Shown: positions 17,767 to 23,031 of the stretch, piece by piece
Numbering within the stretch: the first letter of the stretch is position 1
Layout of the letters: the number at the start of each line of letters is the position of its first letter
From: Desulfogranum japonicum DSM 18378
Lineage (GTDB): Bacteria; Desulfobacterota; Desulfobulbia; Desulfobulbales; Desulfobulbaceae
Reading direction: 5' to 3'
Assembly (NCBI RefSeq): GCF_000429945.1
Contig: NZ_AUCV01000032.1
Location: forward strand, 1-64,000
Length of the DNA stretch: 64,000 bases
Position numbers and translations under genes: made by a program
The notes under the pieces: generated by a model
The model's input: the letters and a program-made list of their open reading frames with translations, nothing else
The model's database searches: none
Told to the model about the DNA's origin: nothing

Positions 17767-18384
17767 TTAAGAGCATTTACGTAATATCTTCAGAAAATTC
17801 GGAATCAGCATAGGTACTTCTTTGCGGTAACGTTTATAGGGGGTACCGAATTGATGGAGCAATCTGTTTTCTTCAAGATAGGCGCCAACTGTGAAGTAGA
17901 GGGTGAGCAGGAGTCGGATACTCAGTCCTATATCGGTAATTGTCGGACTGCACCACAGTAGAGCAATTCCTGCGCTGTACCAAGGATGACGGACTATTTG
18001 AAGAATCCCATGTTGTTGAAAATTTTCTTGTTTGTTGTTTAGGTGGTCCCGACCATGCCGGAGCTGACGAATCCCTAGAAAATATTGCATATCATAAGCA
18101 AGCACCCCGCCTGCAAACAGGATAACACTGTAGACAGCCAGGCATATCTGGAAAAGACGAAACAGGCCGTGAAAGGTAAACACCACTGATTGTGGCAGCT
18201 GCACGGTATAGATGCAGAGGGGAATCAAGGTGATAAGAGAGACCCCGCAATATGCAAGCCTGAAATATGACCGGGTGACAGGAAATAGACGAAAAATAGC
18301 ATCCTTGACCGCCCGACTGATGAGAAGACTGTGCACACCGCACCAGGCTGCCCAAAGCGTTGTAACCAAGAAGAGTTCTTGCAT
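17767..18384 (-). CDS. Isoprenylcysteine carboxyl methyltransferase/NnrU-like integral membrane protein
   Basis: 205 aa with about five hydrophobic helices. The C-terminal signature IVRHPWYSAGIALLW followed by ENRLLHQFGTPYKRYRKEVP matches the ICMT/phospholipid-methyltransferase fold (RHPxY ... EExxL...F...Y..Y...V). In bacteria such proteins are usually of unknown substrate. It stands alone on the minus strand between two family B repeats. Membrane methyltransferase is the likely class; the substrate cannot be inferred. Confidence 0.75.
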   Translation of the reverse strand: MQELFLVTTLWAAWCGVHSLLISRAVKDAIFRLFPVTRSYFRLAYCGVSLITLIPLCIYTVQLPQSVVFTFHGLFRLFQICLAVYSVILFAGGVLAYDMQYFLGIRQLRHGRDHLNNKQENFQQHGILQIVRHPWYSAGIALLWCSPTITDIGLSIRLLLTLYFTVGAYLEENRLLHQFGTPYKRYRKEVPMLIPNFLKILRKCS

Positions 18385-18616: not shown

Positions 18617-21235
18617 TTACAAGTTCCTAAATTCTCCCAGTATATTGGGGTGATGCATTTCATCTTCCATTTCTGTGGTGTGGCAGACCGCACATCCAAA
18701 ATTCGATCCCATTGGCAGGGGTTCATCCTGGTATTGGAGAGGCACCAGGTTATGCAATACCGTGCCATAATCGTTGGAAGCCGGATACAAAGCATGGGGA
18801 CTGCCATGACAGGCAGCGCAGTAAAGTGCACCGCTTTCATCGGTTCTGTTGCGATACAGGGAATCCATGTCTTCGGTGTATTCATGCAGGGTGCTATCCG
18901 TTTCAGGTGCTGCAAATTCCACATGACAATGCAGGCAGTCAGGTTGGTTGCTCCAGGGACTACGGGGAGTAATGTCTGCAATCTCTCCGAATTCAACGAC
19001 GATCCGCCTGCTGTATTCGGTGGCCTGAGAGAGGCCGTTGTTTTCTTCCTGTTTGAGAAGATCCAAGGCGTGTTCGGCCAGGTTGCCATGACAATTTGTG
19101 CATTCCAGCCCTATAACGTTGTGTATTCCACGCAGCATTTGGGTTGCTCCAGTACTGGAAGAAGGATGGCAGGCCGCACAGGCATCGGTACCCTCATGAC
19201 TGAGAAAAACAGCATGAAAACCATGCATGGAAGCGGAAAGATTCATCTGCGAGCGGTAGGTATGCTCTTCAGCATGGCAATCCTGGCAGATTACAGGTTT
19301 TCCTTGGGCTGCCTGTTCAACCAGCTGGGTATTGCTGAGTTTATCATGGATGGAAAGAATATTGAGGGCAGTTGACTGCATAAATCCGGCACGATCAGCA
19401 ACGCGCCATTGTCCGCCATGGCAGGAGTTACAACCCATTTCTGTGGAGACAGGCAGAGGTACGGTTGTGGTGGCGAGCAAGTCTCCTGCCTGATTTTCAG
19501 CTTCCAGGGTAAGAAGAGGATAGGGGTCAAAGGTGTTCTGATCGGGGTATGGAACAACTCGTATATCAGTAGTTAGATACAGACCTGCCTGACCTATCAT
19601 CTCGCCATAGGATTCGGGCCCTGTGTATCCCTGGTGGACGGGGTAGGTCCATTTGAATTTCTGCAATGCCGCATCCCAGAAAACAGTGTACGCACCAGGA
19701 ATCTGGAAAGACGATTCTACCTGATAGAGTATGGTTGCATTTTCAACGACTTCGGGTGTCTCTCCGCGTCGCACCAGTTGCGCCCGCACCGTATTTCCAG
19801 GTTGTCTGAAACTCCAGTACGGCAATGCGTCTGCAAAGGTGTGCATGCCATCGCTGCTCCAGGCAAGGAGCACATATTCATCCTGGTCAGGATTAAAGAC
19901 ATGAGGCTCGGTGGTTTTTTCTGCGATATTTGGTGCTGCTACTCGATCCATCCGGCCATTAAGTCCGTAAGCCAGATACCAAGCAAGGGCTTTGCGCTCT
20001 TCATCTGTACCTATAAAGGGCGGCATGGAGGGGTACACGTGATGCATCCCCCGTATCATATTATCAAGGGAGGCGGGAGTGTAGTTTCTGCTCAGAGCCC
20101 TGATGTCCAGGGTGGGGCCATCCACTGAATGGCAGGAGGAACATAGCAGGGTAAACACTTCTTTGCCTGCAGCGAGTTGGTTGTCTGGTGTTATGGTTGA
20201 ATATTTGCTCCAGCGTGCGTGCTTCAGTAAACCTTCTGTGGATACTTTTGGGGCATCCTTGGTAAGGATGCCGTTGGAGTACATGTAGTCATATATGATA
20301 AACGGTCGCCTGCCTCCTTCCCTGATATATTCAAAACATCCCATATAAAGCAGGCCTGCAACTAAAAGCGTCAGAGCCAGAGGGCGGCTGAGTATACCCG
20401 GCATGCGAATGGCCAGCAACAGGCATCCTGCCAGCAATACTGGGGAGAAGAAAATGAATCCCTGCACAAATTGTGCTGTGGCTGGCATACGTTCAAAGAT
20501 AGTTTGCTGCAACTCTGCAGGGAGAACACCTTTATACCAGAAACCTGACATCAGAAACAGGGTGAAGGGGATAAGCAGCCAGAGGGCAGAATATCTGGTA
20601 AGTTGGATTCGTATTGCAGGGTTGCGGCTCCAGGTTGCTGTAACCAATCCGAACAACCCTGCAATGAGAATGGAAAAAAACGTCCTGAAACAGAGAGAGG
20701 GCCAGAATGTGGGGTTAAAGAAACCAGACCAGAAATTGCCATTCTCCAGCCATTGGCCAGGCGTGAGCATGAAGCCGATGATACCGTTAATCATGAATAG
20801 AGACAGCCAGGCAGCCCCGAAATAGATCCAGCCGATGAGAAGATGCTGTCTGGGGGGAAGCTTGTCGAATGTCGATGCATAGATGAACAGAGCCACTATT
20901 TCAATCAGGAAAAATACCCATTCAATGGCCCAGCCAAAAACAAAGGTATGAATAAGGACAGATGTTGCCGCCGGATTAAGCAAGGCTATGGTAAACCAGA
21001 TGCCGACTCCGGTGATTCCACCGGCGACCATGGTAACCAGGACGAAAAAGCGGGCATGTCGGCGAACAAATTCCATCATGGAACCGTTGTTTTCACGTAG
21101 CGCTTTTAACTCGGTGAGCACGAGAAAAAGGCCTCCGCCCACGGCAAAGTGAGCTATATAGACATGGAATACCGCGATAAGGGCTATCAGTAATCCGCCG
21201 CCTGCCGCTTCCAGTTGCCAGACTGGATAATTCAT
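18617..21235 (-). CDS. CydA-like quinol-oxidase membrane core fused to a monoheme and a multiheme cytochrome c (8 CXXCH)
   Basis: 872 aa. Residues 1-320 resemble cytochrome bd subunit I: H24 in VFHVYIAHFAVGGG (compare E. coli His19), two glutamates E105/E112 in AIEWVFFLIEIVALF (compare Glu99/Glu107), and a GRQPW-like motif EGGRRPF with E306 (compare Glu445). Where E. coli has His186, the b558 ligand, I align R184 (CFRTFF); no Q-loop is seen. Residues 355-425 are a class I cytochrome c with CSSCH (365-369) and a candidate axial Met near 404. Residues 600-855 hold seven more CXXCH motifs at about 602, 650, 686, 712, 767, 806 and 848, ending near the C terminus. The c-type hemes must face the periplasm. 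Role (quinol oxidation toward a periplasmic acceptor, or oxygen reduction) is inference. It overlaps its upstream partner gene by 4 nt (ATGA). Confidence 0.85.
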   Translation of the reverse strand: MNYPVWQLEAAGGGLLIALIAVFHVYIAHFAVGGGLFLVLTELKALRENNGSMMEFVRRHARFFVLVTMVAGGITGVGIWFTIALLNPAATSVLIHTFVFGWAIEWVFFLIEIVALFIYASTFDKLPPRQHLLIGWIYFGAAWLSLFMINGIIGFMLTPGQWLENGNFWSGFFNPTFWPSLCFRTFFSILIAGLFGLVTATWSRNPAIRIQLTRYSALWLLIPFTLFLMSGFWYKGVLPAELQQTIFERMPATAQFVQGFIFFSPVLLAGCLLLAIRMPGILSRPLALTLLVAGLLYMGCFEYIREGGRRPFIIYDYMYSNGILTKDAPKVSTEGLLKHARWSKYSTITPDNQLAAGKEVFTLLCSSCHSVDGPTLDIRALSRNYTPASLDNMIRGMHHVYPSMPPFIGTDEERKALAWYLAYGLNGRMDRVAAPNIAEKTTEPHVFNPDQDEYVLLAWSSDGMHTFADALPYWSFRQPGNTVRAQLVRRGETPEVVENATILYQVESSFQIPGAYTVFWDAALQKFKWTYPVHQGYTGPESYGEMIGQAGLYLTTDIRVVPYPDQNTFDPYPLLTLEAENQAGDLLATTTVPLPVSTEMGCNSCHGGQWRVADRAGFMQSTALNILSIHDKLSNTQLVEQAAQGKPVICQDCHAEEHTYRSQMNLSASMHGFHAVFLSHEGTDACAACHPSSSTGATQMLRGIHNVIGLECTNCHGNLAEHALDLLKQEENNGLSQATEYSRRIVVEFGEIADITPRSPWSNQPDCLHCHVEFAAPETDSTLHEYTEDMDSLYRNRTDESGALYCAACHGSPHALYPASNDYGTVLHNLVPLQYQDEPLPMGSNFGCAVCHTTEMEDEMHHPNILGEFRNL

Positions 21236-22305
21236 GACTGTACCCCCTTGGTCTCAGCGGTAAGAACCAGTTTTAGCATCCAGCCCACAAGAACCAGGCC
21301 ACCGAGTAAAACTGCCAGAAAAAGAAAAAGTGGCGAATATTGCGGATGGACAGGGAGATCAGATGGGGAGAACCAGGGATGGAGGTAGGCGGAACGTAAT
21401 TGATCACGCACCAGAATCATGAAAAATATTGCCGGCAGCGCACTGATTACAGCAGGGTACACTTGTTCGCGCAACGCGAATATTACAGCAAAACAGATGA
21501 AGAGTATAGATATCATGAGTAATATGGTAAACCAGGTAACTGAACCGGAAGCGGAAAGCATTCCATGGGGAATGCTGCCAAGGAACCAGGCTCCAAAGCC
21601 TGCATTAATCAGGGTGGCACCGGCAAACCATTGACATCCCCTGGTGATCATATGACTGGCTTCATGGCTCCCCTTTTTTTGCTTCCAGGAAAACCACACC
21701 GCCAGACTTAACCCGCCAACCGCCACTGCGGAAGTCATAAAATGCAGATAACGGGGCAGGAGAGTCGGGTCACCGGTATTCAAAATAAATCCTCCCGGGT
21801 TGTCAAAATATCGTGACCACTGTGCAGGATTTAGCATCAAGGTAAAATTGTTGGTAAAGAAGAAGCCTATCAGAAGCAGCAACAGGGTTATGGCACCGGT
21901 AAGCAGAAAACGGCCACCGACCAGGCAGTGGTAACGATATTTGTAAATATAGGCCAGGTAATAGGCTGCTATCAATATTCCTATTATCCAGAGCCAGTAA
22001 ACTGCCATGAGAATGGAGCTTGTATAGACCAGATGGCCGAAAAGGACTTGTACAAAGAGTAGGGGAGCAACGCCGAAGTTGACCGTCAAGGCAATGGAGT
22101 AGGGAAGGCCTTTGGCCGCAGATTCACAAACAGGAGAGTCGCCACCTGTATTCCACAGATGGGTGGCGGTGGCTATGAAGGCCGTGCCCAGCATGATATT
22201 CATGAGCACAATATGCAGAAAAAAAGTTACCAGGAGCAGCAGGTAAAACCAGCTCCAGTGTACAGGGAGAGCATCCGGGGCAGGGATGAGGGTTGCTGGA
22301 TCCAT
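21232..22305 (-). CDS. Integral membrane partner of the CydA-like/multiheme protein
   Basis: 357 aa with about eight to nine hydrophobic helices and no CXXCH. The first helix pair (FFLHIVLMNIMLGTAFIATA, H31) parallels the H24 region of the downstream CydA-like protein. The helix YWLWIIGILIAAYYLAYIYK lies where that protein has its two glutamates, but lacks them. It may therefore be a diverged CydA paralog acting in place of CydB, by analogy with CydA-CydA' pairs; this rests on visual comparison only. It is the first gene of the operon, translationally coupled to the second. It starts at ATG 22305; a GGAG site lies just upstream on the minus strand. Confidence 0.7.
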   Translation of the reverse strand: MDPATLIPAPDALPVHWSWFYLLLLVTFFLHIVLMNIMLGTAFIATATHLWNTGGDSPVCESAAKGLPYSIALTVNFGVAPLLFVQVLFGHLVYTSSILMAVYWLWIIGILIAAYYLAYIYKYRYHCLVGGRFLLTGAITLLLLLIGFFFTNNFTLMLNPAQWSRYFDNPGGFILNTGDPTLLPRYLHFMTSAVAVGGLSLAVWFSWKQKKGSHEASHMITRGCQWFAGATLINAGFGAWFLGSIPHGMLSASGSVTWFTILLMISILFICFAVIFALREQVYPAVISALPAIFFMILVRDQLRSAYLHPWFSPSDLPVHPQYSPLFLFLAVLLGGLVLVGWMLKLVLTAETKGVQS

Positions 22306-22635: not shown

Positions 22636-22833
22636 CTACTCAATTTCAATACATTTTTCAGGGCAAAACGCCGCTGCCTTTAATACCTCTTCGGTAACAG
22701 GCTGTGCTGGATTGATCAGCTCTGCCTTTTCTGTAAGTTCGTTGAGCCGAAAAAGATGCGGATACATTTCAATACAGGTCATACAGGCACTGCATCGATA
22801 GGTATCAATGGTGATGGATGTTGTTGAGCCCAT
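22636..22833 (-). CDS. Single-cluster 4Fe-4S ferredoxin
   Basis: 65 aa. Cluster ligands are C14-x2-C17-x2-C20 (RCSACMTCIEMYP) and C57 in FCPEKCIEIE; an extra C61 follows. The acidic ends and small size are typical of monocluster ferredoxins of anaerobes. It lies 198 bp after purF on the same strand, separated by a GC-rich hairpin (22942-22968), so co-transcription is possible but not shown. It is a soluble electron carrier of unknown partner. Confidence 0.9.
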   Translation of the reverse strand: MGSTTSITIDTYRCSACMTCIEMYPHLFRLNELTEKAELINPAQPVTEEVLKAAAFCPEKCIEIE

Positions 22834-23031
22834 AAATTGTAATCCGGCAGCTGTAGGGGGTACTCTTTGCAGGTTTAATTCCCTTGATTTCAGTTGGTTA
22901 TACGGGGCTGTGAAGTTGTGGCGTGCCAGGAGTCTCAGCTGCAGGGCAAGGGATCTCCCCCTGCCCTGTGGAACGATCAGATATACGCTGAGTGACTCCA
23001 GGGTATGTCTTCACTCGTGTATTTGGCTCTG

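Follow-up and report, generated by a model that had tools for sequence, protein, structure and literature searches.

A putative cytochrome c-fed member of the cytochrome bd superfamily, with a fused octahaem cytochrome c and a CydA-like partner, in Desulfogranum japonicum

We describe two overlapping genes, here called A and B, in a stretch of 64,000 nucleotides (the window) from Desulfogranum japonicum DSM 18378 (RefSeq assembly GCF_000429945.1, contig NZ_AUCV01000032.1, positions 1 to 64,000 of the forward strand). The A protein is securely placed in the cytochrome bd superfamily by its CydA fold and active-site haem ligands, and it carries eight c-type haem motifs in a fused C-terminal part. 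In our view, A and B probably form one membrane complex of this superfamily, in which two CydA paralogues replace CydA and CydB and which would act as a cytochrome c-driven reductase of O2, or of nitric oxide (NO), with multihaem input. Biochemical work has established cytochrome bd as a quinol oxidase. If our interpretation is true, there is a cytochrome c-fed branch with the low-spin haem histidine in a paralogous partner, and the active-site unit would be separable from its electron input.

The features of the pair are collected in Table 1; open reading frames (ORFs) of at least 80 residues were listed in the window. Translation of B and A is likely to be coupled through the overlap of the B stop and A start codons. 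The CXXCH motifs of A are found at residues 365, 602, 650, 686, 712, 767, 806 and 848, the first within the class I cytochrome c and the other seven within the tail, and a scan of the 357 residues of B found none. Pfam identifies Cyt_bd_oxida_I (PF01654) at residues 17–203 of A (E 1e-10), cytochrome CBB3 at 353–421, cytochrome c7 at 598–690 and the MtrC/MtrF II/IV domain (PF22113) at 711–860, and no Pfam or NCBIfam family matched B. The AlphaFold2 (AF2) model of A, with a mean predicted local distance difference test (pLDDT) score of 81.8, shows eight long membrane helices, followed by the cytochrome c region, the strand-rich domain and, in the haem tail, short helices, and that of B (mean pLDDT 89.7) shows nine long helices; both are models of single chains. 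In VIA-align comparisons, cytochromes c aligned with A over residues 350–427. The basic residues in the loops indicate an N-out topology for both proteins, so the part of A that follows helix 8, including all of the c haems, is predicted to be periplasmic. An earlier note on this DNA, made by eye from the letters and a list of ORFs, had described A as an 872-residue fusion in which a CydA-like core is joined to a class I cytochrome c and then to a tail with seven CXXCH, all c haems probably lying in the periplasm. The ORF, the Pfam matches and the motif count of 1 + 7 bear out this layout, and the predicted topology agrees with it.

Table 1. Features of the A–B gene pair and its downstream neighbour in the window
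Feature	Position	Strand	Basis
Gene A, 872 aa: CydA core followed by class I cytochrome c, beta domain and heptahaem tail	18617..21235	minus	ORF, Pfam, CXXCH scan, AF2
CydA-like membrane core of A, residues 1–320, eight predicted helices, N terminus outside	20276..21235	minus	AF2, VIA-align, positive-inside
Class I cytochrome c domain of A, about residues 340–426, CXXCH at 365	19958..20218	minus	Pfam, AF2, VIA-align
Beta-strand-rich domain of A, about residues 450–593	19457..19888	minus	AF2 secondary structure
Heptahaem tail of A, residues 600–870	18626..19438	minus	Pfam, CXXCH scan
A His24, aligned with active-site haem ligand H19	21164..21166	minus	H in 41/41 A, 6/6 C23-type, 7/7 cable-type, 12/12 canonical; 52/52 A3
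A Phe183, aligned with haem b558 ligand H186 (ligand lost)	20687..20689	minus	His in 0/41 A, 0/6 C23-type, 12/12 canonical; Phe in 52/52 A3
A Glu306, aligned with haem b595 ligand E445	20318..20320	minus	E in 41/41 A, 12/12 canonical; 52/52 A3
Gene B, 357 aa: putative CydA paralogue (CydA'-like) without CXXCH; nine membrane helices predicted	21232..22305	minus	ORF, AF2, profile comparisons
ATGA overlap (four bases) of B stop and A start	21235-21232	minus	Sequence
B His31, aligned with A His24	22213..22215	minus	H in 115/116 B, i.e. all having the column
B His188, aligned with the b558 histidine (H186) position	21742..21744	minus	H in 116/116 B; aligned with His of cable-type CydA
B Met296, invariant, possible further haem ligand	21418..21420	minus	116/116 B
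NnrU-family membrane protein, next gene downstream of A, possible operon member	17767..18384	minus	PF07298, E 3e-7

Structure prediction upheld the earlier description of about the first 320 residues of A as CydA-like: approximately residues 4–320 align with the CydA chains of ten cytochrome bd entries at Z scores of 25.9–28.4 (VIA-align). Individual residues were compared in an alignment of 41 A sequences, six sequences of the type found in a second system of the host (C23-type; see below), seven cable-type, six OR-N-like and 12 canonical sequences, and in a second alignment of A (A3) with 52 rows. The reference numbers are those that we take to be correct for Escherichia coli CydA (H19, H186, M393, E445, W441, K252/E257 and E99/E107). 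Residues His24, Glu105, Glu112, Glu306 and Arg309 are invariant in all 41 A sequences and in all 52 rows of A3, and Glu105 and Glu112 are the two glutamates that align with the proton-channel pair E99/E107. In addition to the replacement of H186 (Table 1), no methionine occupies the M393 column in any of the 41 A or six C23-type sequences, and neither lysine nor glutamate occurs in the K252/E257 columns of the 41 A sequences. The stretch from the H186 to the E445 position comprises 121–123 residues in A compared with 189–202 in the 12 canonical sequences, making it about 70 residues shorter, and few residues separate helices 6 and 7 in the AF2 models of both A and B. Judged by these alignments, A is without a Q-loop. 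With the Q-loop and the aligned b558 ligands absent from A, and with no CydB, the A–B pair is, on present sequence evidence, not a canonical qOR cytochrome bd quinol oxidase, as the earlier note had proposed.

B appears from profile comparisons to be a distant paralogue of CydA, so that the pair looks like a CydA–CydA' heterodimer. A profile of B found 51 of 52 A cores at E < 1e-3 (best 4e-11), all of its matches among 1946 ORFs of at least 150 residues were of the A or B type, and control searches with reversed or shuffled A cores gave a best E of 9.4. Comparison of B with A by hhalign gave a probability of 94.9%, which with larger profiles (116 B and 54 haem-c CydA sequences) became 98.3%, with an E of 2e-14 over 273 columns. 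Comparisons between small profiles of at most 30 sequences were uninformative (probabilities of 0.7% for B with CydA and 5.4% for A with CydA) and were replaced by the larger profiles and by structure comparison. A CydB profile finds no B and the B profile finds no CydB, and a search of B against the sequences of solved structures returned chance matches only. In structure comparisons, the best Foldseek match of B by E-value is a CydB chain, and VIA-align gave CydA as the best chain in ten of ten bd entries (Z 23.9–26.4). Because CydA and CydB share their fold, it is sequence that decides for kinship of B with CydA rather than with CydB.

Four residues, His188, Met296, Trp163 and Arg300, are invariant in the 116 B sequences. 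The alignment of His188 with the b558 histidine derives from the larger-profile hhalign comparison and, weakly, from the small-profile one. Position 301 of B, which is aligned with E445, is an aspartate or a glutamate in 105 of the 116 sequences. The B protein of the window has no glutamate in helix 3, where A has its glutamate pair.

The two genes occur together with great regularity. Among the best 80 of at least 567 relatives of A in named genomes, B adjoins A in 69 loci, upstream in 62 and downstream in the seven in which A has two or three haems. Six of the 11 remaining loci start too close to a contig end to show B, and one of these (L093) shows the final part of a B gene at the edge of its contig. 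In the other five (L095, L096, L115, L116 and L125) B is unlinked to A yet present in the same genome: in the complete genome of Desulfonema magnum (chromosome of 8.0 Mb) B lies at about 5.77 Mb and A at about 0.76 Mb, and the other unlinked B genes lie on another contig. A further 17 of 17 A-type loci of relatives also have B. Thus, every testable A-type locus had B in the locus or in the genome, the cable type discussed below being the exception in the wider clade. Across the phylum, the B profile matched in 38 of 198 genomes, and canonical PF02322 (CydB) in 48 of 118. The only PF02322 match of the host is on another contig, beside a canonical cydA, and where cydAB stands near A–B in other loci it does so as a gene pair of its own. 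The earlier note had proposed that A pairs with a membrane protein instead of CydB, and had named regular separation of the two genes with a normal cydB beside the fusion as grounds for refutation. Tight pairing and the absence of CydB from the pair are sustained by these counts; the partner, described there as a membrane protein, is better seen as a CydA paralogue. As a partner without a Pfam or NCBIfam match is easily overlooked, some A-type genes elsewhere may have been entered as orphan cydA.

The number of haem motifs varies among the 80 loci, with eight CXXCH in the A ORF of 63, one in four, two or three in seven, and six ORFs that are cut or split by contig ends or frame splits. In one locus (L033, 7774-10430), from a relative with a single contig, the A reading frame is broken in two close to a G run, which could be a sequencing error or a real frameshift. 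A tree was calculated from 72 rows, namely every second octahaem row of A3, all rows with fewer haems and sequences from other loci. The haem-c CydAs form one group apart from the canonical and OR-N-like sequences (support 100/84), and monohaem forms are found at the base of this group and again inside the octahaem group. We read this, by eye and from a tree whose output warns of meeting long branches, as a tail that was gained and then lost several times.

Other branches have also added periplasmic haems. The seven Geobacter-type A proteins have two or three CXXCH, with B downstream, and a separate multihaem protein is encoded near two of these seven loci (with eight CXXCH in L112). The second system of the host, on contig 23 (L041, 6268-10099), consists of a dihaem cytochrome c with a SoxA/TsdA domain, a CydA–cytochrome c protein of 450 residues and a B-like protein of 513 residues, the last with fused cytochrome c domains containing two CXXCH. 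Contig 10 of the host encodes a stand-alone protein with six CXXCH (L040, 7093-8316), which is homologous to residues 453–854 of A with 28% identity. Separate operons with an OR-N-like CydA of 614–627 residues were seen in L264–L269, followed by di- and monohaem cytochrome genes in five of the six.

The relatives of A in cable bacteria are of particular relevance. In three papers, cable genomes are reported to have a CydA homologue, annotated as a lone quinol-oxidase subunit A, but no complete bd oxidase, with a complete terminal oxidase missing in many genomes and Cox or CydBSA present in a few (PMC10030654, PMC11247825, PMC12093952). A multihaem protein fused to a truncated globin is given as a cable-specific gene in a fourth (PMC11976967). 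A truncated-globin model matches 12 of the 73 genomes of the family to which the window belongs, all in two genera, and a globin frame with five CXXCH was found in three of the four stretches examined and not in the fourth. We regard both genera, with 13 genomes of which one lacks a globin match, as probable cable bacteria. All 13 genomes have a weak PF01654 gene and none has one of canonical strength. In the eight that we looked at (L239–L243 and L274–L276) it encodes a CydA–cytochrome c fusion of 421–447 residues, and once of 574 residues with two CXXCH. The seven aligned cable-type sequences all retain the equivalents of H186 and M393; none has the second glutamate (E107) or a Q-loop.

An adjacent B in cable bacteria is unsupported, with none at the eight loci looked at. 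The B profile found B in none of the 13 genomes, although the same search also missed the cable CydA, so that a very divergent B may escape it; elsewhere this profile found B in eight of eight other genomes as well as in the 38 of 198 given above, and in a small set it matches the cable CydA at about 1e-5 to 1e-6. The cable-type protein appears to be the orphan 'CydA' of the published cable genomes. This would give a checkable identity to the gene annotated as a lone quinol-oxidase subunit A, in the form of a fused cytochrome c in eight probable cable genomes. We note that a cytochrome c fusion without a Q-loop does not fit annotation as a subunit of a quinol oxidase.

In the complex that we propose, periplasmic c-type cytochromes would reduce the heptahaem tail of A. 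Electrons would move from the tail to the class I haem c located after helix 8, which in turn would directly reduce the two active-site haems of A. O2 (or NO) would be reduced there with cytoplasmic protons, and B would be a partner probably carrying one or more b haems. The physiological role would likely be the removal of O2 or NO, possibly with some gain of energy, in organisms that live mostly anaerobically. We infer the direction of electron flow, from cytochrome c to the active site, from the loss of the quinol site and the retention of the oxygen site. A further suggestion, which we make only tentatively, is that a duplication split the haems, leaving the active-site pair in A and a b558-type haem in B, with an eight-haem periplasmic wire replacing quinol, and that the cable orphan CydA is a stand-alone cytochrome c-fed relative and a candidate for the missing oxygen-reducing enzyme. 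The b558 ligands are kept in the form without a detected B and lost in the forms with B, as a transfer of the role of this haem to B predicts.

The genomic surroundings of the pair were compared in the same 80 loci; as these are related to one another, the counts do not represent independent cases. Eleven loci contain a canonical cydA (1.06 Mb examined). Nine of the 11 have cydA, cydB and an Rrf2 gene on the opposite strand, facing B–A, with the Rrf2 gene between cydAB and B–A, and DUF4492 was found in seven of the nine by BLAST (checked by Pfam in L087 only). A flavodiiron (ODP) protein is encoded upstream in three loci (L079, L084 and L097), all three of which also have HEAT-repeat genes; L097 has in addition a rubredoxin-reductase-type gene and cydAB, and L079 a piece of cydB. 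A cydA or flavodiiron gene is thus present in 13 of the 80 loci. Rubrerythrin was considered as a regular neighbour and rejected, as the 80 loci contain one full match (in the query's own locus) and three weaker ones; an earlier cluster count had looked larger. A protein of about 230 residues recurs just upstream of B in L079, L082, L084, L097, L164, L167 and L177, including places where B is not linked to A. Pfam recognized HEAT repeats in this protein in L079 and L164, and in the others they were recognized by similarity or by eye. A candidate short ferredoxin-like frame was seen by eye upstream of B in the window (about 22640-22835, minus strand).

Several observations weigh against the interpretation that we prefer. 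The reverse of the B-profile search is weaker: at E < 1e-3, a profile of A cores recovers ten of the 55 B sequences (best 1.5e-6). By sequence, no match links B to canonical CydA (best E 0.93). Both histidines of B are kept, which makes a quinol or other site in B possible. The loss of the M393 ligand from A is less certain than that of H186, because ten of the 41 A sequences have a methionine within four columns of this place and one of the 52 rows of A3 has one in the column itself. The W441 column holds Glu302 in all 41 A sequences, and the active site therefore differs. A simple loss of the b558 ligands from A would look the same as a transfer of the haem's role to B. As the host genome encodes canonical cydAB and one haem-copper oxidase as well, the organism could do without A–B in dealing with oxygen. 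The nine loci with divergent cydAB share one gene order and look like one lineage rather than independent cases, and 67 of the 80 loci have neither a cydA nor a flavodiiron gene. Finally, replacement of haem-copper oxidases by A is unsupported: among 57 relatives, such oxidases (above cut-off) are present in five of the 24 genomes in which A matches strongly (E up to 1e-100) and in nine of the other 33, which shows no association.

Three other interpretations were weighed. It is possible, but in our judgement unlikely, that the complex is a quinol:cytochrome c oxidoreductase, in which B (or a new site) oxidizes menaquinol and b haems pass the electrons to A and its c haems, and from there to periplasmic or extracellular acceptors. 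This would agree with the retention in all 116 B sequences of the histidine aligned with the b558 ligand and with the match of the A tail to the MtrC/F domain of extracellular-electron-transfer cytochromes. In published models of cable bacteria, a CydA homologue moves electrons into the periplasm from the cytoplasmic side (PMC12093952), and a quinone role has been raised for bd-like proteins of Nitrospina (PMC3578206). However, A has no Q-loop by alignment, helices 6 and 7 are predicted to be joined by a short stretch in both proteins, and some neighbouring genes encode oxygen reductases. A also strictly conserves the oxygen-site ligands and the glutamate pair, for which a pure quinol:cytochrome reductase would have no use. 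The earlier note had left two electron directions side by side, the draining of quinol electrons and the feeding of cytochrome c electrons to the membrane haem site; the former is weakened, no known quinol site being left in A, and the latter is favoured.

The same architecture and electron path could also serve a reductase of NO (or another small oxidant) and not of oxygen, which we consider distinctly unlikely. Relatives of the NnrU-family gene that lies next to A here (Table 1) are found downstream of A in 14 of the 80 loci, and the Rrf2 regulators of the nine loci described above would fit such a function. So would the flavodiiron genes at some A–B loci, as flavodiiron proteins reduce NO or O2. 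The biochemical role of NnrU, to our knowledge, is not established, canonical cydAB is the commonest oxidase neighbour, and the ligands that are kept are those of an O2 site. That A is no oxidase at all, its degenerate CydA core serving as membrane anchor and electron relay for the haem tail, is very improbable: the aligned b558 ligands and Trp441 are indeed gone from A, but five active-site residues are invariant in 41 sequences from across the phylum and the CydA core persists where the tail is missing. The interpretation most consistent with these data, in our view, is the cytochrome c-driven reductase of O2 (or NO) with two CydA-type subunits.

Comparison of A–B with known systems indicates both shared and divergent features. 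With canonical CydAB (qOR) it shares the core fold, the active-site haem ligands, the glutamate pair and the GRxP motif, and it differs in the absence from A of a Q-loop and of aligned b558 ligands, in the fused c haems, and in a partner that appears to be a CydA paralogue and not CydB. The next comparison is with the OR-C family of the bd superfamily (Murali, Gennis and Hemp 2021). A CydA core without a quinol site, as in A, is what two papers give for OR-C (PMC10839748, PMC13189123). OR-C members carry a haem c fused to the CydA core, and A combines this feature with the loss of the quinol site. A–B likely belongs to the OR-C branch, to go by these sequence features, and the octahaem form and the b558-type histidine in the partner may set it apart from other members of that family. 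No multihaem CydA fusion was described in the titles and abstract openings searched, a search whose reach did not extend to the 2021 superfamily paper or the 2019 cable-genome paper, and the former may already contain a description of an octahaem protein with a partner of CydA type.

For the OR-N CydAA' of Nitrospira and Nitrospina, two CydA-type subunits and a cytochrome c donor have been proposed, together with loss of the quinol site (PMC10839748, PMC12342949, PMC3578206), features that A–B would share. The six sequences that we infer to be OR-N differ from A in being proteins of 614–627 residues with no equivalent of E445 and no CXXCH, and the two fall in separate clades (supports 100/99 and 100/84), so A is not placed in OR-N. 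The cable orphan CydA is closer: like A, it has a CydA core with a fused class I cytochrome c and no Q-loop, and it falls in the same clade, but it keeps the H186 and M393 equivalents and has neither the E107 equivalent, nor the multihaem tail, nor a detectable B. Lastly, the tail of A resembles cytochromes of the MtrC/OmcA type in its PF22113 match and in the strand-rich domain that precedes the haems, and it differs from them in having seven haems and in being fused to a bd core in the inner membrane.

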